A DNA stretch of 64,000 nucleotides from Solemya velum gill symbiont (lineage in GTDB: Bacteria; Pseudomonadota; Gammaproteobacteria; Chromatiales; Chromatiaceae). The position numbers and the translations under genes were made by a program. The notes under the pieces are model-generated. The model did not search any database, was not told where the DNA came from, and saw only the letters and a list, made by a program, of their open reading frames with translations. The DNA is taken from NCBI RefSeq assembly GCF_000787395.1, contig NZ_JRAA01000001.1, positions 248,001 through 312,000 of the forward strand, written 5' to 3'. Position 1 is the first letter of the stretch. Each line of letters begins with the position of its first letter. This document shows positions 946-37,267 of the stretch, piece after piece.

Positions 946-1860
946 TTACTCATCTCCCCAGATCATCTCACCGCTGTGGGTGAAATCATAACCGCCGAGA
1001 TTGTCGGCAACCTGCTTGCAGGCACCTGACTGAAGGCGCCCTAGCAAATCCTGAAAGAGCCTCCGGAACCAGATACCGCGCGACAGCGCCAGGTCGAAGG
1101 CCTCCCAACCAAAAGAGATAAAACCAAGTCCGGCTTCATTGGCAGCGGAACGTGCACCAGGTGCAACATCCGCCTGTCCCATGACGATAGCAGATGCTGC
1201 CTCGCGTTCGCTCAGTGTCGTGGCGGTCACATTGAGCTCTTCGCCACCCGGACACCTGTTGCTCATTTCCAGCAGGAAGCGTTGTGCACCGGCACCGGCC
1301 TGGCGTTGTGCCCAGCGGTACCTTGAGTTGGTCAGTTTTTCCGGGTCATCTGTTTTGGCGAGCACATCCGGGTGCACCATGAGCCCCTGTTCGCGTGCAA
1401 AGGCCCGTATCAGAATCCACTCCTTGTGGGGCTTGTGTTGCTGCAGCAGGGCGGGATGACGTGTACGGCTTTCGCTCTCCGGACCCCAGTGAATGGCACT
1501 GACATCGACGCGGTGTGCTTCGAGCAGGTCAAGCCCAAGGCGGGTGCCGGTGGGTGTGTAACCAACCTGTGCATGGGAATTAATGTCGTGTGCAAATGCC
1601 ATGATGATGCGATACAGAAGAGGATCGTCACTGCCGGCAATGACCAGGCGATCGGTTAACAGTCCACCGTGAGACGAGGTCAGAATCCAGCGATCAATCA
1701 GTTCACGCGGGAACATCCATTTGCCGGTGACCTTGGTGGCAGGTATTCCACCTTCACTGACCAGGGCATAGATTTTTTTCTCATTGACGTGCAGGTAGGC
1801 AGCAACCTGTTTGACACTCATGAAAACATCATGCTGCTCTGGCTGCATTCTGGCGTTCAT
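946..1860 (-). CDS. Helix-turn-helix regulator with periplasmic-binding-protein-like ligand domain
   Basis: 304-residue cytoplasmic regulator with no signal peptide. Residues about 14-60 form an excisionase/MerR-like helix-turn-helix (MSVKQVAAYLHVNEKKIYALV, then a wing with GKWMFPRELIDRWI). The rest resembles the PBP-like domain (PF12727 type) related to molybdate/tungstate-binding proteins: LVIAGSDDPLL, TGTRLGLDLLEAHRVD, and the late G-x-ADVAPGARSAANEAGLGFI stretch. The start overlaps the fdhD stop by four bases, so the two are translationally coupled. With fdhD and moaA in one operon, a role in sensing molybdate, tungstate or a molybdopterin-related ligand is plausible but inferred. Family assignment is good; ligand and targets are unknown. 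Confidence 0.85.
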   Translation of the reverse strand: MNARMQPEQHDVFMSVKQVAAYLHVNEKKIYALVSEGGIPATKVTGKWMFPRELIDRWILTSSHGGLLTDRLVIAGSDDPLLYRIIMAFAHDINSHAQVGYTPTGTRLGLDLLEAHRVDVSAIHWGPESESRTRHPALLQQHKPHKEWILIRAFAREQGLMVHPDVLAKTDDPEKLTNSRYRWAQRQAGAGAQRFLLEMSNRCPGGEELNVTATTLSEREAASAIVMGQADVAPGARSAANEAGLGFISFGWEAFDLALSRGIWFRRLFQDLLGRLQSGACKQVADNLGGYDFTHSGEMIWGDE

Positions 1861-2780
1861 GCCTGCGTCCTTTCTGAATCGCGTTTGGAACTGCTCTGTT
1901 TGGTCTTGTCGGAGTGCGGTCTTTGCGGCGGTATCGCATCGAACTGGATTCTCTCGGCACCGTGATAGGCGAGAAAGTGTTTCCCCTTGGCTCTTGCAAT
2001 CAGGGCGACTCCGATCGTTTGTGCCAGTTCAAGTCCCTTCTGCGTGACACCTGACCGTGACAGAACGACCGGGATGCCCATCTGCGCAACCTTGATGACC
2101 ATCTCTGATGTCAGTCTGCCGGTTGTATAGAACCACTTGTCTTCACCCCTGGTGGCATTGAGCCACATGTGGCCACTGATTGAATCAGCTGCATTGTGCC
2201 TGCCGACATCTTCGACGAAGAGGTCGACAAAGGGATCTGTCTGTTCGCCAAAGCCACACAGGGCACAGCCATGTACTGCACCAGCCTGGCGATAGACCTC
2301 GTTATAGTTGTTGAGGTAATCGAGTAGCTTGTAGATGTGTGATTGATAGATATCTGTCTGTGGAACGCGCAGTTTTTCGATCTGTTCTCCCATGCGGCCG
2401 AATACGGTGCCCTGACCACAACCACTGGTGACCGTACGGTGCTTGAGTTTTTCATCAAGATCCGTGATGCGTTCAAAGGTCTCTACTGTGACTGCCTGTT
2501 TGTCCCAGTCGACACGGATTGAATCTACAGACTCGAGACAGGGGACAAGACGCTGATTAAGGAGGTAACCGAGGGTCAGCATCTCCGGGTGTGTGCCGAG
2601 CGTCATCAGGGTGACGATCTCACGATCGTCGAGAAAGAGTGTCAGCGGACGTTCACCGGCAACCTGACCGGCACGCTGGTTTCCATATTCATCGACGGCG
2701 ACAACATCGTGTGCAGGACGCAGGCCGGCATTGGTCATTTCAGGCAGGTGACGGGGTTTGGCTTTTGCTGTCCCGCTCAT
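1857..2780 (-). CDS. fdhD: FdhD-family sulfurtransferase for formate dehydrogenase maturation
   Basis: FdhD passes sulfur from a cysteine desulfurase to the molybdenum cofactor before its insertion into formate dehydrogenase. The 307-residue product has the family landmarks: ERPLTLFLDDREI near residue 43, EDVGRHNAADSISGHM around residue 190, and FYTTGRLTSEMVIKVAQMGIP followed by SRSG and a Rossmann-like C-terminus. The usual CxxC (E. coli C121 and C124) is altered: here the loop reads SGCGQGT with one cysteine (C121), and a separate CALC (C172, C175) replaces the usual HAAA segment. It is co-transcribed after moaA (6-bp gap) and with the downstream regulator, facing away from the formate dehydrogenase genes that need it. 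Confidence 0.92.
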   Translation of the reverse strand: MSGTAKAKPRHLPEMTNAGLRPAHDVVAVDEYGNQRAGQVAGERPLTLFLDDREIVTLMTLGTHPEMLTLGYLLNQRLVPCLESVDSIRVDWDKQAVTVETFERITDLDEKLKHRTVTSGCGQGTVFGRMGEQIEKLRVPQTDIYQSHIYKLLDYLNNYNEVYRQAGAVHGCALCGFGEQTDPFVDLFVEDVGRHNAADSISGHMWLNATRGEDKWFYTTGRLTSEMVIKVAQMGIPVVLSRSGVTQKGLELAQTIGVALIARAKGKHFLAYHGAERIQFDAIPPQRPHSDKTKQSSSKRDSERTQA

Positions 2781-2786
2781 GGCCTG

Positions 2787-3803
2787 TTATCCGCCAGTAT
2801 GGTTCATGTGACGAAAGATGATTGGCTTGGCCTCAAGATCGAATTCGTGTCCCTCGGGTTTGAGATGCATTGAGTCGATCAGCGCTTTGCGCAGGGCTTC
2901 ACTGTCGCCGGGAGATGAGCGAATCACGTGGCGCAGATCCATCGAGTGTTCCTGCCCGAGGCACAGCAGTAGATTCCCTTCAGCAGTCAGGCGCACGCGG
3001 TTGCAAGTGTCGCAGAAGTTGTGGCTGTGCGGCGAGATAAAACCGATGCGGCTGTCGATGCCGGGAATACGGTAGTAGCGCGAGGGACCGCCGGTGCTCT
3101 CCGTGGTTGGGAGCAGTTCATGTTCGCTCGACAGGTCCTGCATGATGCGGTCTGTGGAGTAATAGGTTTCTGCACGATCGTGGCTGTTGACCACGCCGAG
3201 CGGCATCTCCTCGATGAAGCTGATGTCGTAGCCATGCTTGATAGCAAACTCGGTCAGTTCCAGTATTTCGTCATGGTTGCGGTTTTCCAGAATGACGGTG
3301 TTGAGCTTGATTTTCTCGATACCGGCATCGCGTGCAGCATCCAGGCCGGCGAATACGCGTTCGAGTTTGCCGTTGCGCGTCAGCGCGGTGAAGCGTTCAG
3401 GTTTGAGAGTGTCGAGACTGACATTGATCCGCTTGACGCCTGCCTTGCGCAGTTGTTCTGCATAGCGCGGCAGCTGCGTGCCATTGGTAGTCAGTGTCAG
3501 ATCATCGAGTCCTTCGGTTTTACCGAGTTCCTCGAACACCATCATGATGTCACGGCGGTTGAGAGGTTCACCGCCTGTAATACGAATTTTGTTGACGCCC
3601 AGACTGATGGCCGTCTGGCCGATACTGATGATCTCTTCAAGAGTCAACAGCTGTTCTCGCGGGATGAATTTTATCTCTTCCGACATGCAGTAGACGCAGC
3701 GCAGGTCACACCTGTCAGTAACCGACATGCGCAGATAGTTTACCTTGCGCCCGAATCGGTCTACGAGTCTGTCAGTTGCATTAGTTGGTGTTGTGCCATT
3801 CAT
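2787..3803 (-). CDS. moaA: GTP 3',8-cyclase MoaA (molybdenum cofactor biosynthesis)
   Basis: Radical-SAM enzyme that makes (8S)-3',8-cyclo-7,8-dihydroGTP, the first step of molybdopterin synthesis. The 338-residue protein carries the N-terminal radical-SAM cluster motif CDLRCVYC (C32, C36, C39), the GGEPL SAM-binding motif, the C-terminal second cluster motif CDTCNRVRLTAEGNLLLCLG, and the terminal GG dipeptide needed for activity. It is the first gene of the minus-strand moaA-fdhD-regulator operon. Other moa genes are not in the window, so this copy may be dedicated to cofactor supply for the neighbouring formate dehydrogenase. A sigma-54-like element lies about 55 bases upstream of the start on the minus strand. 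Confidence 0.97.
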   Translation of the reverse strand: MNGTTPTNATDRLVDRFGRKVNYLRMSVTDRCDLRCVYCMSEEIKFIPREQLLTLEEIISIGQTAISLGVNKIRITGGEPLNRRDIMMVFEELGKTEGLDDLTLTTNGTQLPRYAEQLRKAGVKRINVSLDTLKPERFTALTRNGKLERVFAGLDAARDAGIEKIKLNTVILENRNHDEILELTEFAIKHGYDISFIEEMPLGVVNSHDRAETYYSTDRIMQDLSSEHELLPTTESTGGPSRYYRIPGIDSRIGFISPHSHNFCDTCNRVRLTAEGNLLLCLGQEHSMDLRHVIRSSPGDSEALRKALIDSMHLKPEGHEFDLEAKPIIFRHMNHTGG

Positions 3804-3857
3804 GGCATCTCCCGTGATTTCGCATGCATCGGCAGTACAGCATCAGATTGAACACTT

Positions 3858-3873
3858 TGCAAGAAGCATTCCC
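3858..3873 (-). promoter_or_regulatory. Possible sigma-54 promoter for the moaA-fdhD operon
   Basis: Read on the minus strand the segment is GGGAATGCTTCTTGCA: a GG and a GC exactly ten bases apart, with a perfect -12 TTGCA but a -24 box that departs from TGGCAC. The predicted transcription start falls about 45 bases upstream of the moaA start codon. It is weaker than the two plus-strand elements and is listed because all three lie in the same regulon. Confidence 0.4.
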
Positions 3874-4075
3874 GCAGGGAGTGCAACCTTTGTACGACAG
3901 TCATTTTGCCGATTTTCACTTCCTGATAACCCTCGATTATACCCTCGAACTGATACATTTTGACCAATTGATTTCAGGCAGCATGGACATTGTGGGACAG
4001 TTCGATTGGATTTCAGTGGCTTATATTCCTCTAAAACAGCTGTTATTTCGCCAATGCTGGTTGTTGGAGAGACTC

Positions 4076-4091
4076 TGGTACATAACTTGCT
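4076..4091 (+). promoter_or_regulatory. Sigma-54 promoter for the formate dehydrogenase accessory operon
   Basis: TGGTACATAACTTGCT matches the -24/-12 consensus TGGCAC-N5-TTGCA, with GG at 4077-4078 and GC at 4089-4090 separated by exactly ten bases. The predicted start near 4102 lies about 30 bases before the GTG start of the DUF3305 gene at 4132. That also argues against any more upstream start for that gene. The surrounding 3804-4131 gap (328 bp) holds this element and its possible divergent partner; I see nothing else in it. Confidence 0.65.
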
Positions 4092-4131
4092 CTTTATAGT
4101 GATTACGCAAGTTGATTTGAAAGGAGAGCAG

Positions 4132-4659
4132 GTGGAACCGACAGCACTGAATGATCAGGCGGAGAAGGTGGTTGAGCATTTTCCTGTTGCAGTGATTCTC
4201 GAGCGTCGCGAGGCGAAGAGTCAGTGGGTCGATTATGTCTGGTCTGCGGTTGGTGTCACTGTTGGTAGCCAGGATCATCTTCCGCGCAGAGAGGCGCAGC
4301 TGGTTCATGAGGAGGAGGGTGTACAACACTATCTTTACGGTGGCCTGCAGGTTGCACTCTATGTCGACCAGTGCGAGAGCTATTACCACAACATGATGAC
4401 CGAAACGCCGCGCTGCTACATTGTTGCCTACGATGCGGAGGAGAGCGGCACCGGAATGCCGGAACCTTTCCTTGTCACCATGAGCTTTGACGAGGCGCAC
4501 TGTTACCTCGAAGCGGAAGGTGAAGTCTACAGTGTTGATGTGCCACCGGAACTTTATCGCTGGACCGAGGATTATGTGCTTGCACACTATGTCGCCGAGA
4601 AGAAAAAGAAACGCAAGCTGGTCGACTGGAAGAAGCAGGGGCGTGAGAGGGCATCATGA
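4132..4659 (+). CDS. DUF3305 protein, formate dehydrogenase accessory
   Basis: 175-residue protein matching the DUF3305 pattern (FPVAVILERREAKSQWVDYVWSAVGV near the N-terminus), a family typically found with DUF3306 and membrane formate dehydrogenases. No biochemical role is established. The frame extends upstream to 4006, but a GTG at 4132 preceded by AGGAG (spacing five) and by the sigma-54 element at 4076 is the better start. The C-terminus is basic (KKKKRKLVDWKKQ). It overlaps the next gene by ATGA (4656-4659) and opens the accessory operon. A protein-protein or assembly role is inferred from context only. Confidence 0.82.
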   Translation: MEPTALNDQAEKVVEHFPVAVILERREAKSQWVDYVWSAVGVTVGSQDHLPRREAQLVHEEEGVQHYLYGGLQVALYVDQCESYYHNMMTETPRCYIVAYDAEESGTGMPEPFLVTMSFDEAHCYLEAEGEVYSVDVPPELYRWTEDYVLAHYVAEKKKKRKLVDWKKQGRERAS

Positions 4660-18640: not shown

Positions 18641-18751
18641 TCAGCCTGTCAATCAAACATAGATACTATTTGAGCACAGGTTGGCATTGCTTGTCAGTGC
18701 CTGTTTGAAGCCGCACAATAGCGTCTTACACCTTTGTCCGGTTTTTTCGTC

Positions 18752-19180
18752 ATGTTCGAGTATGTCTTTTTTCACCAGCAGCCGATGCTGCAGTTTTGCG
18801 ACTTTGTTCGTCAGCGTGGCCTTGATCCACAAATGCAGGATTCACCCGGGAATTCATCCGGGGATTCACTGATTGTCTCGCTGGCAGAAGAGAGTGTTGA
18901 TGATGATCTTGCAGACGAAATCGACAACTTCTATGACAGTATGATGGATCTCGATCATGAGCTTTTCAGCGACACAGTCGAGCCGGGTAGCGATGACTAC
19001 CAGACGGCAGGCGTGGTAGTGAATCTCGCTGGTGGAAAAACCGTGTATGCCGATGTGCCCGGTGACCTGCTAAAACGCGTAATGGAGATTCTCTCTCCCC
19101 AGGAACTGGGGGATTTTGTCAATGCCATTGTCGATGCTGTTGAAAAGCCGGATGATCGTTCTCTGTGCCAGCGTAAGTAA
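18752..19180 (+). CDS. Small acidic hypothetical protein
   Basis: 142-residue soluble, acidic protein that I do not recognise. ATG 18752 is preferred to a TTG 18 bases earlier. The N-terminal MFEYVFFHQQPMLQFCDFVRQ segment is followed by a Ser/Gly-rich linker, an acidic helix (SVDDDLADEIDNFYDSMMDL) and a C-terminal region with VNLAGGKTVYADVPGDLLKRV and SPQELGDFVNAIVDAVEKP that looks folded. No signal peptide, membrane segment or cofactor motif is seen. It is 68 bases upstream of the ATP-grasp gene on the same strand, so it could be read with that operon, but its link to the pathway is unproven. Confidence 0.7.
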   Translation: MFEYVFFHQQPMLQFCDFVRQRGLDPQMQDSPGNSSGDSLIVSLAEESVDDDLADEIDNFYDSMMDLDHELFSDTVEPGSDDYQTAGVVVNLAGGKTVYADVPGDLLKRVMEILSPQELGDFVNAIVDAVEKPDDRSLCQRK

Positions 19181-19248: not shown

Positions 19249-21069
19249 TTGACGGATACGGATTCAAATAAGACCGGGATCGCCCATCTGAAAACGTGGC
19301 GGCATGTTCATGGAATGGGCTATGGCATCATGCAATCCTGTATTACAGGCGAAATGAATCTTTGTCTGAATGAAGATATTGATCTCTCCCGACTCGATAC
19401 AATCATGTCTCATGCCCTTGGTGAAATCGAGTCTGTGAGTGGAGTCTGCTCAGTAGATGAGGCGCTGATGTCCCGCATTCTTTACTGGACGGCAGGTATT
19501 CAACGCCATTTTTCTATTCCGCTCTATCCCGGTTACAGAATGCTTGGGAAGACGACAGGGACAGATAAAGATACAGAGAGTGGCCGGACATTCAGGTTCG
19601 TTCTTCCCAGTATCCATCCACAAGCGACACTCGCTGCGTTTCAATGGGTTATAACAACGCTTGAGCATACATTGCTCAAAGACTCAGACGACCAACTACC
19701 AACTGACAAGGCCGCTGTTGATTCTTTGCTGAAGCGTAAGCGGTCGCTAGGGAAATATCTGAAACAGTATGCGACGCGTGAAAAAACAACCTTCGCGATC
19801 TACCAGGCAGCATGGGAGATGGATGTACCGGTTCGTCCCCTGAGTTCAGGCTACGTGGTACTTGGTTATGCGGCCTGCAGTCGCATGATGAAGATCACCA
19901 TCTCTGACCAGACGACAGCGCTAGGAGTTGATATTGCACGCAACAAGCTGGCGACCAGTGAAATATTACATCGTATCGGTTTGCCCGTACCTGGTAGCAG
20001 GTACGTCAAGGACTCCCGGCAAGCAGTCGAGATGGCGGAGAGGATTGGATACCCGGTAGTGATCAAGCCATCAGACCATGATCAGGGCAGGGGGGTCTAT
20101 GCCGATCTGCACGATGCTGCTTCAGTTGAAAAGGCGTACGAGGGTGCACGGAAATTTTCCAAGAACATTCTGATTGAGAAGCATATTTCCGGATTTGGTC
20201 ACCGCCTGACAGTTTATAATGGAAAAATCTATTCAGTTACCAGGAAAACGCCTGCTGGAATCACGGGTGATGGAGTCTCGGCAATTGACGCACTGATCGC
20301 CAACTCGTCATGCCTGCCTTTTGTGACCCATAGTGATGAGAACCAAAGTGCCCGTGTACTCAATGATGAGTCGCTTGGTCTTATCAGGCAGTATGGACTG
20401 ACAACCAAGTCAGTGCTTCCTGAGGGGCATTTTTTTGCCCTCAAACGCAGAAATAATGCCGCTGATGGTGGTGTATCCAGTCCGGTCCCGGTGTCTGAAG
20501 TGCATCCTGATAACAGGGATATTGCGATCAAGGTTGCGAGAGTGACAGGGCTTGATTTTGCGGGTGTCGACCTGATCTCTCCGGATATTCGTGTCTCATG
20601 GAGAGAGAATGGAGCTGTAATTTGCGAGGTCAATGCGCAACCAGAAATCCATCAAATTATACTTTCTCGTATATTTGTAGATATGTTGCCACTTCGTGGC
20701 AGGATCGATGCCTTCCTTGCTGTTACTGCAGCACACCAGGAGTATGAAAAGAGTCATCTTGGGTATTGGATTGATAGCCGTTCGATTGATTCCGTCTATT
20801 CTGCAGGGAGAATTTCCCATCAGCCATCGCAGGGACTGCCAAATGCAGTTGAGGGTAACATCAGCGTATTGCAGGATGATCCTGATACTCATTCAGTGCT
20901 CGTCGTAATGTCACCAGAAGAGCTGGCGCAACAGGGATTGCCGTTTGATCTCTTTCGCACAGTACACCTGGCTGATTGTGAGCATGAGAAGCAGTGCGGA
21001 GAATTTATCGAGATGTTGAACTGCCATGCCGATGAGATAGTGCTTGGTAAAGAAATGAGACCCATTTAA
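19249..21069 (+). CDS. Cyanophycin-synthetase-like ATP-grasp ligase with degenerate Mur-like tail
   Basis: 606-residue soluble protein. Residues about 222-485 are an ATP-grasp domain most like that of cyanophycin synthetase (CphA): ALGVDIARNKLATSEIL, YPVVIKPSDHDQGRGVY (K273), ILIEKHISGFGHRLTV, GDGVSAIDALI, GLDFAGVDL and the metal-binding CEVNAQP (E460, N462). CphA continues into a Mur ligase; here the equivalent AVTGTNGKT P-loop position reads AVTAAHQEY (491-499). Only about 110 further residues follow, with a DPDTHSVLVV...QQGLPFD stretch reminiscent of a Mur domain remnant. It probably makes an amide or peptide bond with ATP; substrates unknown. TTG at 19249 is the likely start. It is the first gene of a five-gene operon. 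Confidence 0.8.
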   Translation: MTDTDSNKTGIAHLKTWRHVHGMGYGIMQSCITGEMNLCLNEDIDLSRLDTIMSHALGEIESVSGVCSVDEALMSRILYWTAGIQRHFSIPLYPGYRMLGKTTGTDKDTESGRTFRFVLPSIHPQATLAAFQWVITTLEHTLLKDSDDQLPTDKAAVDSLLKRKRSLGKYLKQYATREKTTFAIYQAAWEMDVPVRPLSSGYVVLGYAACSRMMKITISDQTTALGVDIARNKLATSEILHRIGLPVPGSRYVKDSRQAVEMAERIGYPVVIKPSDHDQGRGVYADLHDAASVEKAYEGARKFSKNILIEKHISGFGHRLTVYNGKIYSVTRKTPAGITGDGVSAIDALIANSSCLPFVTHSDENQSARVLNDESLGLIRQYGLTTKSVLPEGHFFALKRRNNAADGGVSSPVPVSEVHPDNRDIAIKVARVTGLDFAGVDLISPDIRVSWRENGAVICEVNAQPEIHQIILSRIFVDMLPLRGRIDAFLAVTAAHQEYEKSHLGYWIDSRSIDSVYSAGRISHQPSQGLPNAVEGNISVLQDDPDTHSVLVVMSPEELAQQGLPFDLFRTVHLADCEHEKQCGEFIEMLNCHADEIVLGKEMRPI

Positions 21070-21080
21070 GAGAGGTGTTT

Positions 21081-22310
21081 ATGGGTGCAGATTATTTGAT
21101 GAATCTATTTAACGATTTTTCTGGTGATGAGCTATTGCTTAACCCCTATCCGGCCTATCGTCAATTGCTGGAATCAGGCGGCGTGCTGCATGACGAGACA
21201 AATAATCGTATTTACCTTGGGCGTTACGATGATGTCAGGGCAGTGCTGGGTAATGCTACGCAATTCTCATCCAGCAATAATGGATTAAATCAAACGATGT
21301 TGGGTTCAGGTGGTAGTTCCCATTCCAGATTGCGCAGTGTCCTGCAGCCTGCCTTTCAACCAGGTGTTTTAGCTCGTGAGCTGACCAGGCTGAATGAGTT
21401 AACAGACATGCATGCGCGTAATCTCTCACAGATGAGTGAACCATGCGATTTTGTTGATGCGTTTGCAGCACGTATTCCAACGATGGTTCTTTCCTGGATG
21501 TTTGGTGATGAAAAAGATCGTTGCAACGATTATGGTAACTGGTCATGGGCGTTAAAAAAGTCTCCTGCAACAGAGGATGACCAGGGTAAACAGTGTGTCT
21601 CACAAGAATATCTGCCTGGCAGTGAACAACAACACCCGGTCACCAGGGAGCAACTTATTGATGAATGTAAAGCTTACCTCGATGAGACATTTCAGAATGC
21701 GCTGGAATCGTCTACCAGTGGATGGGTTGCCCGGATTCTTATTGATGCCTACAGGGACGGTAGGGTCGTCTATCAGGACTTGATAGAAACCGGTCTGTTG
21801 CTGATGGTGGGTGCACACGAAACAACAACGAAATCGCTGACCAATGCGATGGTGATACTGGCAGGCAGGCAAGATATATGGGAAAGAGTGCGTGAGGATG
21901 AGGATCTCGTCAAGCCGTTTATAGAAGAAGTTTTTCGTTTTGATCCTCCCGTGCAGCGACGCCCGCGCTTAGCTGTTGAAGATGTCAGGATAGGTGGACT
22001 GGAGATTACAGCAGGGACGCATGTGGTTGCCTTGATCGCGGCGGCAAACAGGGATCCCGGTGTTTTCGAAGATGCAGATGAGTTTCTTCTCAACCGTGAA
22101 CGGAATCCACATGTATCATTCGGATTTGGTCCGCACGTGTGCCTTGGTATGCAATTGGCCAGGATTGAAATGATCAGTTCAATCAATTCATTACGACGCC
22201 ATATCGGTTCTTTCCGGCAGGTCAGAAAATTGACTGCTGATGATTACCGTGATGTGCTTTCCCTGCGTTCGCCTAAACAGCTATGGCTTGAATTAACCCA
22301 CCAGGACTGA
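21081..22310 (+). CDS. Cytochrome P450
   Basis: 409-residue soluble bacterial-type P450 monooxygenase. The I-helix reads LLMVGAHETTT (residues 240-250), the K-helix ExxR is EEVFR (282-286), and the haem loop FGFGPHVCLGMQLAR places the thiolate ligand at C354. There is no membrane anchor; it would need a ferredoxin and reductase encoded elsewhere, since none is in the operon. ATG 21081 follows AGAGG by five bases and is preferred to the GTG at 21075. It begins 12 bases after the ATP-grasp gene and its stop abuts the prenyltransferase start. The substrate is unknown but is presumably an intermediate of this cluster. Confidence 0.93.
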   Translation: MGADYLMNLFNDFSGDELLLNPYPAYRQLLESGGVLHDETNNRIYLGRYDDVRAVLGNATQFSSSNNGLNQTMLGSGGSSHSRLRSVLQPAFQPGVLARELTRLNELTDMHARNLSQMSEPCDFVDAFAARIPTMVLSWMFGDEKDRCNDYGNWSWALKKSPATEDDQGKQCVSQEYLPGSEQQHPVTREQLIDECKAYLDETFQNALESSTSGWVARILIDAYRDGRVVYQDLIETGLLLMVGAHETTTKSLTNAMVILAGRQDIWERVREDEDLVKPFIEEVFRFDPPVQRRPRLAVEDVRIGGLEITAGTHVVALIAAANRDPGVFEDADEFLLNRERNPHVSFGFGPHVCLGMQLARIEMISSINSLRRHIGSFRQVRKLTADDYRDVLSLRSPKQLWLELTHQD

Positions 22311-23339
22311 ATGCATTTGAATTGGCTATCTCGCAAACTGCATGAAATCCTGTTTATTTTACGTTTTCATGACTGGCAATCCAAAACAGCCTTTTTTCTG
22401 GTGGCTATCGGTTATTCGATGTCTCAGCATTCAGTTCCAATTGCTGATAATCTCATGGCCGCATCGAGCCTCTTTTTATTATTGTGTCTCTATGCGGCTT
22501 CAGGCTATAGCCTGAATCAATACTTTGACAGGGGTGTGGACAAAGCGTGTGGCAAGCACCGTGATATCGGTGATTTCCCAATTGCCACAGCGCGTATAAC
22601 AATCATTGTCCTGCTAGTGATCGCTTTTCTTTTTTCCCTGCATTTTTTATTCAGTGGCAAATTCTATGTGTGGATACTCTACTGGGCCAGCATTGCTGCT
22701 GCACTTGCCTACTCCATGCCGCCACTTCGTCTGAAAGAGCGTGGCTATTTTGGCTGGATCAGTGCCTCGCTGGCACAAAGGGTATTACCATTTGTCGTTA
22801 TATTTGAGTATTTTGATGTATGGACATGGATATCTGCCGGACTCTGTCTGCTGGCATTGATGACAGGTCTGCGTTACATCATAGTTCATCAGTTGGAGGA
22901 TTATGCAGCGGATCTGAAGGTTGGTGTAGAAACAGTGGCGACCAGAATCGGGCCGCAACAGTTACGCCAATTTCTATTTCGATATATTGTTCCGCTTGAG
23001 ATCATCTATCTTGTCACCCTGGCAATCTATATGAGCCTTGATAACGGGGTTCTTTTGGGAGGGTTTACTCTATTTGGCTTAACCCTTGTAGCAGCATTCT
23101 CGAACAAAAGGGCAGGCCATGAAACACCTGAACTGGACCTGGAGAAATATGAATTCTTGTGGGGGCTCTATTGCATCTATTGGCCTGTTGCAATGGGATT
23201 TTCCCTGCTTATGAATGACATCGCATACTTCCCCTTTCTGATTTTTGTCCTGTTGTGGGCGTCGAGATGGATTAAGCACGACTTGCAGCGATTGATGCGT
23301 GGTTTTCTGCTCATGACTCAACAACTGAAAGGTGAATGA
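22311..23339 (+). CDS. UbiA-superfamily membrane prenyltransferase
   Basis: 342-residue polytopic membrane protein with eight to nine predicted helices. The first aspartate-rich motif is N69-x3-D73-x3-D77 (SLNQYFDRGVDK) and the second is D197-x3-D201 (LEDYAADLKVGVET), both diagnostic of UbiA enzymes that bind a prenyl diphosphate through magnesium. YSMPPLRLKERG between them is also typical. It starts on the base following the P450 stop. The acceptor may be an aromatic, a phosphosugar or another small molecule. Ubiquinone UbiA is less likely, since ubiC and the other ubi genes are absent and the neighbours are secondary-metabolism-like. Confidence 0.85.
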   Translation: MHLNWLSRKLHEILFILRFHDWQSKTAFFLVAIGYSMSQHSVPIADNLMAASSLFLLLCLYAASGYSLNQYFDRGVDKACGKHRDIGDFPIATARITIIVLLVIAFLFSLHFLFSGKFYVWILYWASIAAALAYSMPPLRLKERGYFGWISASLAQRVLPFVVIFEYFDVWTWISAGLCLLALMTGLRYIIVHQLEDYAADLKVGVETVATRIGPQQLRQFLFRYIVPLEIIYLVTLAIYMSLDNGVLLGGFTLFGLTLVAAFSNKRAGHETPELDLEKYEFLWGLYCIYWPVAMGFSLLMNDIAYFPFLIFVLLWASRWIKHDLQRLMRGFLLMTQQLKGE

Positions 23340-23343
23340 TTCA

Positions 23344-24252
23344 ATGAAATCGTATCCTGAATATGCTGCAAGACCTGCGCAACTGAAGCGGATAACGCTA
23401 GCCATCCAGTCAGGTGTTGAGGCGCTGCAGCGTTCGCAGCTGCAGAATGGAGCATTTCCATTTTCACAACGACAAAGCGATGGCTCATGGCAGGCTTGTC
23501 ATCCGATTTTCTCAACCGTGACTGTTCTGCTCTGTATCGGAAAACTCTTACCTGGTTCTGATGTGCAACGAGCAATCGATTATGTTGTTACCTGCAGGGA
23601 GAGTGACGGTCTGTGGGACTACGACCCTGGCATGGATATTCCCGCCGATAGTGATACGGTGGCCTGCGCCCTGGCAGCATTGTCAAACTATGCGCCTGAC
23701 CTGATTGAGCAATCAGATAGTGACCTGTTATTGAGTGTTCTCAGGCCCGATGGTGTTTTTTTGACCTGGTACAGCGATGAGGATAGATGGCAGTTACAGG
23801 CGCGTGATGATGCAGTGATGAATTGCAATGTTATCTATGCGCTTTCAATGATGGGCTGTCATGTCACTGATCATACAATTGAAGCGATTGCCAAGTTGAT
23901 TCAGCGCAGTACAACAGGGAGTCGATATTATACTCAACGATGCATGCTCGCATATGCTGCTGTTCGGGCAGGATTTGATCTGACTGAAATTCCGGAAGAG
24001 TTGACCACGCAGGCAATGTTCGAGGATTCACCCCTGTCCGTGGCGCAATCTATATGCGCGGGTATTCCACCCAATGAGGAGGCCATTCCCATTTTGCTTG
24101 ATACTCAATGTGCCGACGGTTTGTGGCCTGCCCAGCCCTGGTGTACCGGAGAGGGGCTGGAACCATGGGGTAGTAATGCTGTGACCACGGCGTTTTGTCT
24201 CGAGGCTCTCAATCTACTCGTAACAACCCCTAATAGTACACATGATGACTAG
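23344..24252 (+). CDS. Prenyltransferase/squalene-cyclase repeat protein
   Basis: 302-residue soluble alpha-alpha barrel protein. It has repeated QW-like elements (ALQRSQLQNGAF, SDGLWDYDPG, CADGLWPAQPW) typical of squalene-hopene cyclase and protein prenyltransferase beta folds. Residues PADSDTVACAL resemble, but do not match, the class II cyclase DxDD acid motif, and VMNCNVIYALSMMG is a recurring element of the family. At about half the length of a squalene-hopene cyclase it is a single-domain member. A cyclase or prenyl-binding role next to a UbiA enzyme is inferred. ATG 23344 is chosen; a GTG at 23332 overlapping the previous gene is possible. Confidence 0.78.
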   Translation: MKSYPEYAARPAQLKRITLAIQSGVEALQRSQLQNGAFPFSQRQSDGSWQACHPIFSTVTVLLCIGKLLPGSDVQRAIDYVVTCRESDGLWDYDPGMDIPADSDTVACALAALSNYAPDLIEQSDSDLLLSVLRPDGVFLTWYSDEDRWQLQARDDAVMNCNVIYALSMMGCHVTDHTIEAIAKLIQRSTTGSRYYTQRCMLAYAAVRAGFDLTEIPEELTTQAMFEDSPLSVAQSICAGIPPNEEAIPILLDTQCADGLWPAQPWCTGEGLEPWGSNAVTTAFCLEALNLLVTTPNSTHDD

Positions 24253-25426
24253 GCGGATTTTTATTATTTCCCAGCATGGTTATGGTCTGGGCCATCTGTC
24301 CCGCTCCTCTGCTCTGGCTGCGGCATTACAATCTTGTGGAGATTATGAAGTCACGCTCTTTTCCGGTGGTCAGCCAATAGCAGCGTATATTCCACCGAAG
24401 AAGGTGGATTTTGTCCAGCTGCCACCAACACGTTTCATTACGCTGACAGAAACGAAAACGCTTGCCTGTGAATCAATGGATGATGACAAGTCAATTGAGC
24501 AGGTAGACGAACTGCGCAGTGAAATAATTATGCGTTATTTCCATCGCCTCAAACCGTCAGCTGTGATTACAGAATACTATCCTTTCGCACCCGAGCGTTT
24601 TGGTAAAACACTCGATGCACTGCTCAGTGCAAGCAGGGAAGAGAAGAGCAGATGTAAAATGATCTGCTCAATCAGGTCAGTTCCCATCGATGCCACATTG
24701 GCAAGCCCGATGGACGTTAATCACCTGTTACACAAGTATTATGATCATGTATTGCACCATGCAGATAAAAGGCTTTTTAGCATAGATTCTCTCGGTGACT
24801 ATGTCAGGCTGGCACTTGATTCCGTCCCCTGCACACAAACGGGTTTTATATGCCAGCATCTTCCGGTTCAAACTGCAGATATTCGAAATGACGGCGGTCT
24901 GCTCCTCTCCGTTGGTGGGGGGAGGGATGGCTACACTTATCTGCAGAGCTGGATAGAAGCACTGAAATCAGTATCGATTGATAACTTCTTTCCCGTCACG
25001 GTTTTATGTGGGCCACTAATGCCTGCATCGGAAGTCAACGAGTTGCGCACACTGATCGATGAGCGATTTAACCTGTATACCACGCTTGTTGATACGGGAG
25101 AGTTGATGCGCAAGGCCTGCGCTGTCGTATCAATGAGTGGCTACAATACAATCAATGAGGCATTGCATATCGGCAAGCCACTGCTCGCATTTCCGCGCAA
25201 GGGTTATCTCGAGCAGGAGATGCATGTGCGTAGCTATTTCGAAAAGGGTCTGCTGTTATCGGGAGAAGAAGCGGATAGCACTGACCAGATTGCAGATCTG
25301 ATGAGGCAACTGGCCAGCTTCAATCCATCCTTCACGCCAGATTTTAATGGTTCGGAATCTTCTGTTGATGTAATTTCTTCAATTCTTGGTAATACGGAAA
25401 CAAGCGATATTTCCGGCCAGGTTTGA
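24242..25426 (+). CDS. MurG/COG4671-like glycosyltransferase
   Basis: 394-residue GT-B fold enzyme. The N-terminal domain opens with the glycosyltransferase signature FIISQHGYGLGHLSRS, and the C-terminal nucleotide-sugar domain has LLLSVGGGRDGY and AVVSMSGYNTINEALHIGKPLLAFPR. It is closest to the predicted glycosyltransferases of COG4671, distant relatives of MurG. It overlaps the preceding gene by 11 bases, so translation is coupled, and it closes the five-gene operon. It likely adds a sugar to the finished or nearly finished product; donor and acceptor are unknown. Confidence 0.87.
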   Translation: MMTRRIFIISQHGYGLGHLSRSSALAAALQSCGDYEVTLFSGGQPIAAYIPPKKVDFVQLPPTRFITLTETKTLACESMDDDKSIEQVDELRSEIIMRYFHRLKPSAVITEYYPFAPERFGKTLDALLSASREEKSRCKMICSIRSVPIDATLASPMDVNHLLHKYYDHVLHHADKRLFSIDSLGDYVRLALDSVPCTQTGFICQHLPVQTADIRNDGGLLLSVGGGRDGYTYLQSWIEALKSVSIDNFFPVTVLCGPLMPASEVNELRTLIDERFNLYTTLVDTGELMRKACAVVSMSGYNTINEALHIGKPLLAFPRKGYLEQEMHVRSYFEKGLLLSGEEADSTDQIADLMRQLASFNPSFTPDFNGSESSVDVISSILGNTETSDISGQV

Positions 25427-25551
25427 GCATGCTTGCGCGGAGCTTGGCTTGGAAGGGGCCGGTATAGAACAGTCGGATTTGTTTTTCCTTGAGACATCAT
25501 ATAGGGTGGGAGCCGTTTTTTTACCTATTATCATTTGCAGGGAGTATCAAA

Positions 25552-32885: not shown

Positions 32886-33112
32886 TGTTGTTCTCCCAAT
32901 TAATGTCACGCGCACTGCAGGTGACGGGCTCACTTTTTGATAATTAGCGATGCTTCATCCGCAAGATTTAAATCGCATGCAGATAACAGTTAAAATAACA
33001 GATAAGTCGCCCGTCTGAAAAGATCTAATCGGCAGTGAATTTTCATTCGGCTGATGCAACAGCTGCGTGGACCTGCGATACTGTTATTTTTGAGTCTCTC
33101 CGGGAAAATAGT

Positions 33113-35071
33113 ATGTGTGGCTTCGCAGGATTTATTGATCCTGGCCGGTCTGCCGGCGAGATGAAGGCGCTTGCCTCATCGATGGGCGACACGATTGTGC
33201 ATCGAGGACCGGATGATGCAGGTGCCTGGGTAGACGAGGAGAGCGGTATCGCTCTTGCGCACAGGCGATTATCAGTTGTGGATCTCTCCGCAGCAGGCCA
33301 TCAGCCAATGGAGTCCAGCAGTGGACGCTACGTCATCGCATTCAATGGCGAAATCTACAATCACCTGCAGTTGCGCGAGCAGCTTGAGGCATCAACTTCA
33401 CAGCCGCTTTCGTGGCGAGGGCACTCCGATACTGAAACCCTGCTGGCAGCATTTGAACAGTTAGGCATCAAGCAAACCCTGGAAGCCTGTGTCGGCATGT
33501 TTGCGATTGTCCTGTGGGATCGCATGGAACGTCGGCTGACCCTCATGCGGGACCGTTTCGGCGAAAAGCCACTCTATTACGGCTGGGTCAATAACGCTTT
33601 TGTATTCGCATCTGAGCTGAAAGCACTGCGCTGTTTCCCCGGTTTCGACAATTCCGTATCGCGTGAATCACTTGCTGCCTATCTGCGATTCAGCCATGTA
33701 CCTGCGCCGTTAACGATCTATGAAAATCTCTACAAGCTGGAACCCGCTTCACTGGTGAGTTTCAACGGGGCGCAAAGAGAGACAAGCGGAAAGCCACAGA
33801 CGCAAAGTTACTGGTCTCTTTCCGATGTTGCTGAAAATGGCATTACCAACCGTATCAATGATGAAGATGAGGCGTTACATACGATAGAGACAGGATTGCT
33901 TGAATCGGTACGCCTGCAATCCTGTGCCGATGTTCCGCTTGGTGCTTTTCTATCCGGTGGTGTTGATTCATCACTGATTGTCGCCCTGATGCAGCAGCAG
34001 GCATCTTCTCCGGTGAAGAGCTTTACCATCGGTTTCGAGGAGGCAGGATTTGATGAGACTCCACATGCCCGTGAAGTTGCTACCCACCTTGGGACTGAGC
34101 ATCACGAACTCTTTGTGACATCAGCCGAGGCGCAGCAGGTCATTCCACAACTGCCACATATTTACGACGAGCCATTTGCCGATTCATCACAGATTCCGAC
34201 GCACCTGGTGTGCCGGGCGGCGCGTCAACATGTCACCGTGGCACTTTCAGGAGATGCCGGTGATGAGCTTTTTGGTGGCTACAACCGCTACCACTGGGCG
34301 CCCCTGGTATGGCAAAGAGTCGCATGGATGCCGCATCCACTGCGTCGTCTGCTGGGTAGCCTGATTCGCCTGTTGCCTGTTGCCGGTTGGGATGGAGTGA
34401 ACAGTTTGCTGCGCAGCAGGCAAGCTGTTGCTCAGCTTGGAGACAAGGCACACAAACTTGCCGAGCGATTGCAACATACAGCTTCACTGGATGATCTCTA
34501 TTTTGCTCTTGTCAGTGAATGGCTGAACCCTGATCGTATTCTGCAGAGTTCATCATCAAAGACAATGGCAGCTGTTGGTAACGACAAGTTGCCTGTCGGG
34601 CTGCCACCGGTCGAGGCCATGATGCTGCAGGATAGTCTGAACTACCTGCCGAACGATATCCTGTGTAAAGTTGATCGGGCAGCAATGTCTGTCAGTCTCG
34701 AGACACGCATCCCGTTTCTGGATCATCGCGTTGCTGAAACAGCATGGCGTTTGCCCCTGTCGATGAAAATGCGTGACAATACGGGTAAATGGATGCTGCG
34801 CCAGTTGCTCTACAGAAAAGTACCGCAGGAGTTGATTGAACGGCCCAAGACAGGTTTCGCAATTCCCGTCGGACAGTGGTTACGTGGCCCATTGCGTGAA
34901 TGGGGAGAGATGCTGCTCAACGAGACACGTCTCGAACAGGAAGGTTTCTTTAATCCGCAAGTCGTGCGTGAGACCTGGCAACAGCACCAGGGCGGACGCT
35001 ACGACTGGACAGCACGCCTGTGGAGCCTGTTAATGTTCCAGGCCTGGCTTGAAAGAGAAGGGAGGCAATAG
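33113..35071 (+). CDS. asnB: Asparagine synthase (glutamine-hydrolysing), polysaccharide-cluster type
   Basis: 652-residue two-domain amidotransferase. Translation starts at ATG 33113 so that the catalytic cysteine is residue 2 (MCGFAGFIDP), after maturation the N-terminal nucleophile. The glutaminase domain runs to about residue 200 and includes RLSVVDLSAAGHQPM and AFNGEIYNH. The synthetase domain has the pyrophosphate loop LSGGVDSSLIVAL and SGDAGDELFGGY. Such AsnB copies are common in exopolysaccharide and exosortase loci, where they amidate sugars or amino acids; here it precedes a polymerase-like and a glycosyltransferase gene. No exosortase is visible. Confidence 0.95.
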   Translation: MCGFAGFIDPGRSAGEMKALASSMGDTIVHRGPDDAGAWVDEESGIALAHRRLSVVDLSAAGHQPMESSSGRYVIAFNGEIYNHLQLREQLEASTSQPLSWRGHSDTETLLAAFEQLGIKQTLEACVGMFAIVLWDRMERRLTLMRDRFGEKPLYYGWVNNAFVFASELKALRCFPGFDNSVSRESLAAYLRFSHVPAPLTIYENLYKLEPASLVSFNGAQRETSGKPQTQSYWSLSDVAENGITNRINDEDEALHTIETGLLESVRLQSCADVPLGAFLSGGVDSSLIVALMQQQASSPVKSFTIGFEEAGFDETPHAREVATHLGTEHHELFVTSAEAQQVIPQLPHIYDEPFADSSQIPTHLVCRAARQHVTVALSGDAGDELFGGYNRYHWAPLVWQRVAWMPHPLRRLLGSLIRLLPVAGWDGVNSLLRSRQAVAQLGDKAHKLAERLQHTASLDDLYFALVSEWLNPDRILQSSSSKTMAAVGNDKLPVGLPPVEAMMLQDSLNYLPNDILCKVDRAAMSVSLETRIPFLDHRVAETAWRLPLSMKMRDNTGKWMLRQLLYRKVPQELIERPKTGFAIPVGQWLRGPLREWGEMLLNETRLEQEGFFNPQVVRETWQQHQGGRYDWTARLWSLLMFQAWLEREGRQ

Positions 35072-35099
35072 GGATAGGGATGACAGGGAGAATGTTTCG

Positions 35100-36149
35100 G
35101 TGCTGAGCTACTGGCTGATGTATCTGCTGCCGGGTGTTGCAGCAATCTTTATGGCAAACAGGCTTAGGGATCATACGCTGAGCCCCTGGGTAGGGATGTG
35201 GCTGCTGTATGTCATTCTGATCGGTCTGCGATTCGAAGTGGGTGGCGACTGGTTCAATTATCTCAGGCACTACGAATTTGCACTGCATTACGATCTCAAA
35301 GACATTTTACTCGGCAAGGGAGGTGATCCGGGTTATGTACTCCTAAACTGGATAGCAGCGAACAATGATTGGGGAATGGAGTTCGTCAACCTTGTGTGTG
35401 CGATCGTGTTTGTTACCGGATTGATCAATTTCTGTCGCCAGCAACCGGCACCATGGATTGGATTCGCTGTTGCTGTTCCTTACCTGGTAATTGTTCTTGG
35501 CATGGGCTATACGCGGCAGGGAGTCGCACTCGGTCTGCTTTTCTGGGCGTTGATCTGGCTCGAGCGCAGGCACTTGTGGCACTTTCTCTTCTTTATCGGT
35601 ATCGCTGCCATGTTCCACAAAAGCGCGGTAATCCTGGTTCCACTGGGACTTTTTGTTACCAAGGGAAACTGGCTCTATCGCATCATTGCAGTCGCTTCAG
35701 TCCTCTACGGACTATGGAGCCTGACGCTTGCCGATGCAATCGATTCCATGTGGGTTAACTATGTTGATGCGCAAATGCAATCTTCCGGGGCACGGGTGCG
35801 CGTGTTGATGAACCTGTTGCCGGGACTGGTATTGCTCTTTTTCCACAAGCGCTGGCGGGTCGCTTTTCCCGAGGGTCGATTCTGGTACTGGATGGCGCTT
35901 GGCTCAATTGCTGCTGCTGGCCTGGTTGAGTTTGCATCGACCGCGGTCGATCGACTCTCTCTCTACCTGACACCCTTGCAGGTGGTGGTACTGTCACGAC
36001 TGCCATTTTTGCTGTGCAAGGAAATATCACCTGAAACCCTGGCAGTGATTACAATACTCGGATATGCAGCTGTGCTGTTTGTGTGGCTCAATTATGCAAC
36101 ACATGCAGTACACTGGATTCCTTACCAGAACACGATGTTCCTGTGGTGA
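35100..36149 (+). CDS. EpsG-family polysaccharide polymerase-like membrane protein
   Basis: 349-residue polytopic inner-membrane protein with about ten hydrophobic segments. The signature GLRFEVGGDWFNY in the first third, TRQGVALGLLFWAL and FHKSAVILVPL are typical of EpsG/Wzy-like proteins that polymerise or export surface polysaccharide repeat units. The frame extends upstream into asnB; GTG 35100, with AGGGAG nine bases before it, gives a sensible first helix, though ATG 35118 is also possible. It ends four bases before the glycosyltransferase start. Confidence 0.83.
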   Translation: MLSYWLMYLLPGVAAIFMANRLRDHTLSPWVGMWLLYVILIGLRFEVGGDWFNYLRHYEFALHYDLKDILLGKGGDPGYVLLNWIAANNDWGMEFVNLVCAIVFVTGLINFCRQQPAPWIGFAVAVPYLVIVLGMGYTRQGVALGLLFWALIWLERRHLWHFLFFIGIAAMFHKSAVILVPLGLFVTKGNWLYRIIAVASVLYGLWSLTLADAIDSMWVNYVDAQMQSSGARVRVLMNLLPGLVLLFFHKRWRVAFPEGRFWYWMALGSIAAAGLVEFASTAVDRLSLYLTPLQVVVLSRLPFLLCKEISPETLAVITILGYAAVLFVWLNYATHAVHWIPYQNTMFLW

Positions 36150-36153
36150 ACTG

Positions 36154-37267
36154 ATGTCACAACTGATTGCTCTTGTCGCCAATAGCGCATGGAACCTCTA
36201 TCATTTCCGCGGCAACCTGGTACGCCGCTTACTGCAGGAGGGTTACCGGATTTTGATCATCGCCCCACGTGATGACAGCTCGGATAAACTTGTCGATCTT
36301 GGCTGCCTGGTAGTGGAGCAGCCGATGGACATCAAGGGTACAAACCCGCTTGCTGACCTGCAGACAATGCGGGAGTTAAAGCGGCTGTATCGTGAACATC
36401 AACCCGATCTTGTGCTGCACTTTACTATCAAGCCTGTCATCTATGGCAGTTTTGCTGCACGCTCATTAAAGATTCCTGTTATCAATACCATTACCGGACT
36501 GGGAACTGCTTTTTTGAGTGGTAGCTTGTTAATGCGAATCGTCGAGGTGCTCTATCGACACTCCCAGCGCTGGCCGTCTCGTGTTTTTTTTTCAGAACCC
36601 GGATGATCGCAAGCTGTTCCTGTCGAAGCAGCTTGTTGCAGAAGAGAAGAGTGTCTGCCTGCCTGGATCAGGTGTAGATCTCAAGCGTTTCATTACGACT
36701 GAATACCCGTCCTCCAAACCGGTCACGTTCCTGTTGATTGCACGACTGCTACGTGACAAGGGCATTGTCGAATTTGTTGAAGCAGCCCGGCAGATCAGAA
36801 AAGACGATGCGCAAACCTGTTTCCAGCTACTCGGTCCACTCGGAGCAACTAACCGGACAGCTCTGGACGATGATGAAGTTGCCAAGTGGGTGGAAGAGGG
36901 TATCGTCGAGTATCTCGGTGAAACTGATGATGTGCGGCCCTTTCTTCAGGCTGCACACTGTGTTGTGCTGCCATCCTATCGTGAGGGTACTCCGCGTGCT
37001 CTCCTTGAGGGAGCAGCGATTGGTCGTCCTCTTATCGCCACAGATGTACCGGGTTGTCGCGAGGTGGTTGATTCCGGCGTTAACGGCCTGCTGTGCGATG
37101 TCAAAAATACCTCGTCACTTGCCGCTGCGATGCAGCAGTTTCTCGATATGCCTCTGGAAAAACAGCTTGAAATGGGAGTTGCAGGAAGAATCAAAGTGGA
37201 GAAAGAGTTCGACGAGGAACTCGTCATTGGCGCCTATCTGGCTGAAATACCAGAATTAGTTCAATAA
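36154..37267 (+). pseudogene. GT4-family glycosyltransferase interrupted by a +1 shift at a T9 run
   Basis: Together the two frames encode a full GT4 enzyme of about 370 residues, similar to PglA/WcaL-type glycosyltransferases of surface polysaccharides. Frame one (36154-36606) has the acceptor domain ALVANSAWNLYHFRGNLV and LHFTIKPVIYGSFAARS. Frame two (from about 36587) has the donor domain FLLIARLLRDKGIVEFVEAA, LPSYREGTPRALLEGAAIGRP and DVPGCREVV. The break is at nine Ts (36584-36592): with eight Ts the frames join as RVFFQNPDDR, the family sequence. It could be a real mutation, a sequencing error, or a site of productive RNA polymerase slippage, which T9/A9 runs are known to allow. Confidence 0.85.

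Follow-up and report, generated by a model that had tools for sequence, protein, structure and literature searches.

A UbiA prenyltransferase paired with a single-domain class II terpene cyclase candidate in a five-gene operon of the Solemya velum gill symbiont

In the genome of the Solemya velum gill symbiont, five closely spaced genes for an ATP-grasp ligase, a cytochrome P450, a UbiA prenyltransferase, a squalene-repeat protein and a glycosyltransferase raise the question of what kind of product such a compact operon might serve. The genes lie at positions 19249 to 25426 of the stretch analysed here (the window; 64,000 nucleotides of contig NZ_JRAA01000001.1, positions 248,001 to 312,000 of the forward strand), which is part of a 2.7-Mb genome that is 99.7% complete. 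A first-pass annotation, made from the sequence, had proposed a single transcription unit for amide ligation, prenylation, cyclisation or prenyl binding, oxidation and glycosylation that contained no terpene synthase gene. This mix of activities was largely supported by our analysis. However, we read the squalene-repeat protein as a candidate class II terpene cyclase, and together with UbiA it recurs in three phyla. The operon may thus make a small glycosylated, oxidised terpenoid conjugate by prenyl transfer followed by class II cyclisation, a reading to which we give an even chance.

Family searches agreed with the proposed gene list, and the starts with the best ribosome-binding sites reproduced all four predicted junctions (+11, 0, +4 and -11 bases) exactly, which confirms the five-gene operon:

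19249..21069, + strand: stand-alone CphA-type ATP-grasp ligase (open reading frame with TTG start; Pfam and NCBIfam)
21081..22310, + strand: cytochrome P450 (best start ATG 21081; Pfam p450)
22311..23339, + strand: UbiA-superfamily prenyltransferase of a cyclase-linked subfamily (Pfam UbiA; subfamily profile)
23344..24252, + strand: single-domain class II terpene-cyclase candidate with a TC-beta toroid (best start ATG 23344; profile and fold)
24242..25426, + strand: GT28/MJ1255-type glycosyltransferase (Pfam Glyco_tran_28_C)

The Shine-Dalgarno-like sequence is GAGAGG upstream of the P450 gene and AAAGGTGA upstream of the cyclase gene.

The squalene-repeat protein matched Pfam Prenyltrans at 14.4 bits, below the cut-off of 26.5, and the cluster could therefore be missed by rule-based finders, as had been anticipated. 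A single-sequence search of the PDB sequences recovered drimenol synthase at 7e-5. With a profile of eight sequences, the window's included, drimenol synthase was matched at 3e-21, AstC at 2e-13 and squalene-hopene cyclase (SHC) at 2e-7, and all ten PDB sequences matched at E up to 0.01 were terpene cyclases, by name or by reading. The motif PADSDT at residues 104-109, a form of DxDT, aligned with D333 of AsDMS and D273 of AstC. According to the corresponding reports, AsDMS D333 and AstC D273, D271 and T274 are required for cyclisation (PMC9128629, PMC13244436, PMC12365925), and AstC N324 and Y361 position the acid D273 (PMC13244436). In the alignment, AstC D271, D273, T274, N324 and Y361 map to D106, D108, T109, N166 and Y200 of the window cyclase, all of which are present, and P104, D106, D108 and Y200 are invariant in all eight cyclase rows.

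The predicted structure pointed in the same direction. An AlphaFold2 model calculated from a four-row alignment (predicted local distance difference test, pLDDT, 76; predicted template modelling score, pTM, 0.82) adopts an alpha/alpha toroid fold. Its best Foldseek matches were AsDMS, 8pak, MstE and SsDMS, and the best rows in VIA-align were 8paj, AsDMS, 8pak, MstE, SsDMS and SHC, with Z of 21.5-23.1 over 264-281 residues, ahead of glycosidases that share the fold (Z ~18). The protein comprises 302-306 residues, the model and its matches span one toroid domain, and a HAD domain is lacking. Sequence profile, predicted fold and AstC-type catalytic residues together argue for a single-domain class II terpene cyclase candidate that is not merely prenyl binding, so that the earlier statement on the lack of a terpene synthase gene was wrong in substance. 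The toroid might instead bind or modify a peptide or a prenyl carrier, with the operon making a different conjugate. The glycosidases of the same fold, the divergence of the window copy and a related toroid at locus L093, which lies beside leader-peptide-like genes with no UbiA in the fetched 17 kb, would all be in line with this, but with the residues of an AstC-type catalytic network in place and all ten profile matches in the PDB being terpene cyclases, by name or by reading, we regard it as improbable. At L093 itself (1803-4603), the toroid is flanked, by eye, by ABC transporters and several short leader-peptide-like genes with a Gly-Gly-x-Cys end, and possibly represents a cyclase-like enzyme in a locus for ribosomally synthesised and post-translationally modified peptides (RiPPs). 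An early suspicion that the window operon makes a RiPP or a cyanophycin-type product was dropped; L093, the sole locus of RiPP-like character, lacks a UbiA in its fetched 17 kb.

Does the adjoining UbiA belong to the housekeeping prenyltransferases? The protein matched Pfam UbiA (63 bits, 3.5e-17), and N69, D73, D77, D197 and D201 are invariant in all six aligned rows, window included, leaving both Asp-rich motifs intact. Its model is modest (pLDDT 71) and was used for the overall fold only, which is that of UbiA. The score remained under the cut-off of all 13 NCBIfam families matched at E up to 0.1, and TIGR01474 (4-hydroxybenzoate octaprenyltransferase) was absent from these 13. The ubiquinone UbiA of the same genome is another gene (TIGR01474, 349 bits, above cut-off) beside a chorismate-lyase-like gene, and the haem O synthase CyoE is likewise a separate gene (325 bits, above cut-off) with a CtaA-like neighbour; elsewhere the genome also encodes a MenA-like protein (101 bits, under cut-off). 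Because the genome holds separate copies of these enzymes, the operon UbiA is, as judged from its sequence, neither the ubiquinone nor the haem enzyme, and is specialised rather than housekeeping. When left out of its own subfamily profile, it scored 121.6 bits against at most 43.5 bits among the reference rows reported. In the UbiA tree, the window protein and 11 further cluster UbiAs were separated from five references (84/91); the window protein and some of the references sit on long branches, so that the placement of the window is unsure. It has some resemblance to chlorophyll synthase, with which it shares both Asp-rich motifs and the fold, yet it reaches only 52 bits against a cut-off of 212. 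This weak resemblance would be the starting point for a quinone- or chlorophyll-type prenylation beside unrelated genes, which is very improbable and largely refuted, as the genome has its own ubiquinone UbiA, CyoE and MenA-like genes, the operon genes overlap and the pair with the cyclase recurs in other genomes. The four UbiA-family genes in the 2.7-Mb genome may serve as a rough yardstick for chance proximity.

The recurrence of the pair was followed from both proteins. A tblastn search of plasmids with the window UbiA returned four records. On the plasmid of Novosphingobium sp. RL4, a sulfotransferase gene accompanies UbiA and a cyclase whose motif is DVDDTA, and on that of Nostoc sp. C052 a PhyH-UbiA-cyclase-TPR arrangement forms one protein. 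Single-sequence searches with the cyclase found the symbiont's own gene only among 369 genomes of its class and none in plasmids or GTDB contigs, and a three-row alignment was needed to find relatives in the contigs, where it identified Novosphingobium sp. ST904, Tamlana sedimentorum and Niabella hibiscisoli. The cyclase profile matched 11 of 375 genomes of Bacteroidota at E up to 1e-5 (four strongly, including Tamlana), 4 of 388 of Pseudomonadota (two strongly, including that of the window) and 2 of 336 genomes from the order to which Novosphingobium belongs (each of them strongly). With the window set aside, and Novosphingobium too because its plasmid copy came from the UbiA search, seven full-length cases lie beyond the seeds, namely Tamlana, Niabella, G922, G892, G950, G685 and G1275. 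Each of the seven has a subfamily UbiA and a GT4 gene within ~10 kb of the cyclase (fetched stretches ~20 kb). For five of the nine weaker matches in Bacteroidota and Pseudomonadota the neighbourhood was inspected (14-17 kb, with just 1.8 kb to one side at L093; some of them short or close to the end of a contig), and no subfamily UbiA turned up in any of the five. The pair of UbiA and cyclase thus recurs in Pseudomonadota, Bacteroidota and Cyanobacteriota, so that neither of the findings that the first-pass annotation had named as refuting it, unrelated neighbours in every other genome or a housekeeping enzyme such as the ubiquinone UbiA, was borne out.

The partners of the pair were compared across ten clusters (the seven above, the window, Novosphingobium and Nostoc; stretches of ~13-21 kb). 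A glycosyltransferase was found in each, of GT28 type in the window, of GT4 type in eight and by annotation and Pfam in Nostoc. P450s occurred in four (window, Tamlana, G892, G685), PhyH-type dioxygenases in two (Nostoc, G1275) and sulfotransferases in five (Novosphingobium, G685, G1275, G892 under the Pfam cut-off, and Nostoc by annotation). A window-type ATP-grasp protein was detected by tblastn at E up to 1e-4 in none of the nine other clusters and in none of three further loci (L052, L053, L093). The suggested co-occurrence of the five families therefore held for UbiA and the cyclase, whereas a conserved five-gene unit was rejected, with the ATP-grasp gene in the window only and varying types of P450 and glycosyltransferase. 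Unusual fusions were seen alongside. A malonyl-type acyltransferase domain (PF00698) is joined to a P450 at L068:11144-13366 and L087:11093-13339, and these fusions lie in the cyclase clusters of two Bacteroidota, Tamlana and G892. Cyanobacterial plasmids encode a methyltransferase-UbiA-PhyH fusion (L053:6885-10211) and a PhyH protein fused to glycosyltransferase domains (L050:109-4902).

A number of observations weigh against the terpenoid reading and against a uniform family of clusters. In the cyclase, N166 is kept in 7 of 8 rows and replaced by S in one, and residue 109 is T in the window and in AstC but D or N in the other seven rows. The window copies of both proteins are outliers in leave-one-out scoring, at 86 bits for the cyclase versus 227-425 for the other nine and at 121.6 bits for UbiA versus 225-346 for the other eleven subfamily members, and the cyclase of the RiPP-like locus L093 scores above the window's (212 bits). 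In the poorly resolved cyclase tree, the UbiA-linked rows do not form one clade (three changes are needed, and one group appeared in 0 of 200 bootstrap trees), and the window pairs weakly (80/93) with L103, a cyclase without UbiA nearby. On the Methylomagnum and Oscillatoria plasmids, two of the four records found via UbiA, no such cyclase was present at E up to 0.001. In addition, the cyclase seeds were themselves UbiA-linked and two of the first three rows had been found via UbiA, which favours linked relatives. The operon contains no gene for an aromatic acceptor. In a congeneric sister species (genome 91% complete, 380 contigs), only the first operon gene was recovered, and its contig breaks off at that point; a DNA search of this genome did not detect the remaining operon genes, nor did a protein search detect UbiA. 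Since the cyclases with a UbiA neighbour do not group as a single clade and the window is outlying, the association seems, from these comparisons, to be older than a single recent lineage, or to have formed more often. The window operon is a divergent variant of the UbiA-cyclase clusters, as the ATP-grasp gene was detected in none of the other nine stretches.

How might the five enzymes act together? In the proposed pathway, UbiA would move a prenyl chain, probably farnesyl from the symbiont's own farnesyl diphosphate (FPP) synthase, onto a small acceptor; genes for an FPP synthase and an octaprenyl-diphosphate synthase lie elsewhere in the genome, and both enzymes could supply the substrate. 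D108 of the cyclase would then protonate the chain end to yield a drimane- or labdane-like ring system, in the order known for MstE. The P450 would oxidise the cyclised product, the GT28-type enzyme would attach a sugar, and the ATP-grasp ligase would join a carboxylate and an amine, perhaps an amino acid, as an amide. The most likely product would be a glycosylated, oxidised prenyl conjugate, either a meroterpenoid or a terpenoid glycoside, that carries an amide. The idea of an amino-acid conjugate, put forward in the first-pass annotation, has the ATP-grasp family as its single line of evidence.

MstE from merosterolic acid biosynthesis in Scytonema (PDB 6sbb-6sbg) is the precedent for this order of steps. 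It has a single toroid domain of ~350 residues with a fold match at Z ~22 and, by its PDB titles, is a class II enzyme whose substrate is an already prenylated acceptor, so that a prenyltransferase must work ahead of it. However, it shares 14-16% identity with the window cyclase and is not among the profile matches at E up to 0.01. The MstE study reportedly describes a class II cyclase of a single domain that works on a prenylated aromatic. With this precedent, the window system would be a variation on a known kind of chemistry.

By sequence profile, the closest relatives are AsDMS and the fungal AstC, both HAD-TC-beta proteins, with which the window cyclase has the DxDT motif and the catalytic network residues in common. 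There a HAD phosphatase domain is present, whereas here there is none and a UbiA gene adjoins the cyclase instead. In an alternative reading the first two steps are swapped: the cyclase would act on free FPP or geranylgeranyl diphosphate and fold it into a bicyclic diphosphate, after which the cyclised group would be ionised or transferred by UbiA. UbiA would thereby take the place of the HAD phosphatase, and a terpene synthase made of two proteins would have it as class I partner. Drimenol synthases, to which the cyclase is nearest, act on FPP, and the fusion of UbiA and cyclase in Nostoc would suit such a partnership. Four arginines of AsDMS, R378, R380, R425 and R513, bind the diphosphate (PMC12365925). 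Two of them, R378 and R425, have arginine counterparts in the window cyclase (R158, by reading the alignment, and R198), but by the same reading no arginine stands at the positions of R380 and R513, and MstE, of similar size and fold, works after prenyl transfer according to its PDB entry titles. We consider the reverse order a serious rival, though rather unlikely. Prenyl transfer before cyclisation remains our preferred reading.

The ATP-grasp protein (606 residues; Pfam RimK, 48 bits, RimK/CphA-type) scored 255.8 bits against the NCBIfam cyanophycin synthetase, with a cut-off of 877 and a match that stops at residue 467. The motifs IKPSDHDQGRGV and CEVNAQPE are both intact. It resembles a cyanophycin synthetase reduced to its N-terminal and ATP-grasp domains, and shows ~28-36% identity to plasmid proteins annotated as cyanophycin synthetase (among the matches listed, 20 of 124); with the Mur-ligase domain missing and the score far under the cut-off, it does not class as a cyanophycin synthetase proper. 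At least two further stand-alone CphA-type paralogues lie beside other genes in the same genome (3 of 16 candidates scored). Inspection by eye showed stand-alone proteins of this type adjoining class I methyltransferase-like genes in two genomes (L028:3016-8856, the symbiont's own; L031:7212-9935), and at L029 and L033 another recurring pair with a ~330-residue protein. The P450 matched Pfam p450 at 96 bits (3e-27) and contains the haem loop FGFGPHVCLG in its translation. The P450s of other clusters scored 82-108 bits against it by tblastn and the best PDB P450 144 bits by phmmer, values from different programs that give a hint only; the former may not be specifically close to the window P450, and the oxygenases may have been recruited independently. 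The glycosyltransferase matched Pfam Glyco_tran_28_C at 27 bits (4e-6), above the cut-off of 22, and NCBIfam MJ1255 at 46 bits, under the cut-off of that family.

Two further features accompany the five genes:

18734..19180, + strand: 148-residue protein of no assigned family, 68 bases upstream of the operon on the same strand
25459..25476, + strand: terminator-like hairpin just 3' of the glycosyltransferase gene (consensus match only)

The 148-residue protein, for which no Pfam or NCBIfam family was found above cut-off, is possibly co-transcribed with the operon, and an 89% identical copy occupies the same place in the sister species. At the same site that species has an orthologue of the first ~385 ATP-grasp codons (76.6% protein identity), the contig ending inside the gene with its last ~98 bases divergent. 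Compared with the sister, the ATP-grasp gene has a ratio of nonsynonymous to synonymous substitution rates (dN/dS) of 0.185 versus 0.05-0.10 for three neighbours, and a dS of 0.74 versus 0.34-0.41. The ATP-grasp gene was thus probably in place here before the two species diverged. GC content at third codon positions is 0.44-0.48 in the five operon genes versus 0.53-0.64 in 11 flanking genes. An acquired island with an empty site in relatives was not demonstrable, the genes beside the phosphomannomutase gene differing in six relatives of other genera. A promoter scan gave fewer matches than in shuffled sequences, and no promoter was taken from it. The upstream flanks are housekeeping-like (EF-G-like and phosphomannomutase-like, named by reading the translations), and downstream lie an FKBP gene (Pfam) and a BtuCD-like pair, again named by reading. 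Some 8 kb downstream of the operon, window positions 33035-37267 hold an asparagine-synthase-like gene followed by membrane and GT4-like genes, the latter 28-36% identical to the GT4s of cyclase clusters; this is possibly a separate glycan or glycoconjugate locus.

Drimane-type sesquiterpenoids had not been reported from bacteria until recently, according to PMC9128629 and PMC11035983. In the drimenol synthases of marine bacteria a phosphatase domain is built in, whereas the related cyclases considered here lie as single proteins next to a membrane prenyltransferase, or are fused to it, with glycosyltransferases nearby. In the open-access literature, including PMC8073705, we found no description of such UbiA-cyclase clusters. 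What is new is thus a HAD-less drimenol-type cyclase that is paired or fused with a UbiA subfamily in three phyla, accompanied by a glycosyltransferase in all ten clusters, with an amide-ligase variant in the window. Somewhat more tentatively than the pathway proposed for the window, UbiA and the HAD-less drimenol-synthase-type cyclase might constitute a two-protein terpenoid machine (one-protein in Nostoc) of at least three phyla that makes exported or cell-bound glycosylated drimane/labdane-type conjugates, a cluster class without a description in the open-access literature searched, with the window as its amide-bearing branch. The pairing raises the question of whether UbiA acts as a substitute for the phosphatase or as the supplier of the cyclase substrate. 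It also offers a simple search rule: UbiA and TC-beta no more than 10 kb apart would mark terpenoid glycoside clusters that might escape rules based on Pfam thresholds.

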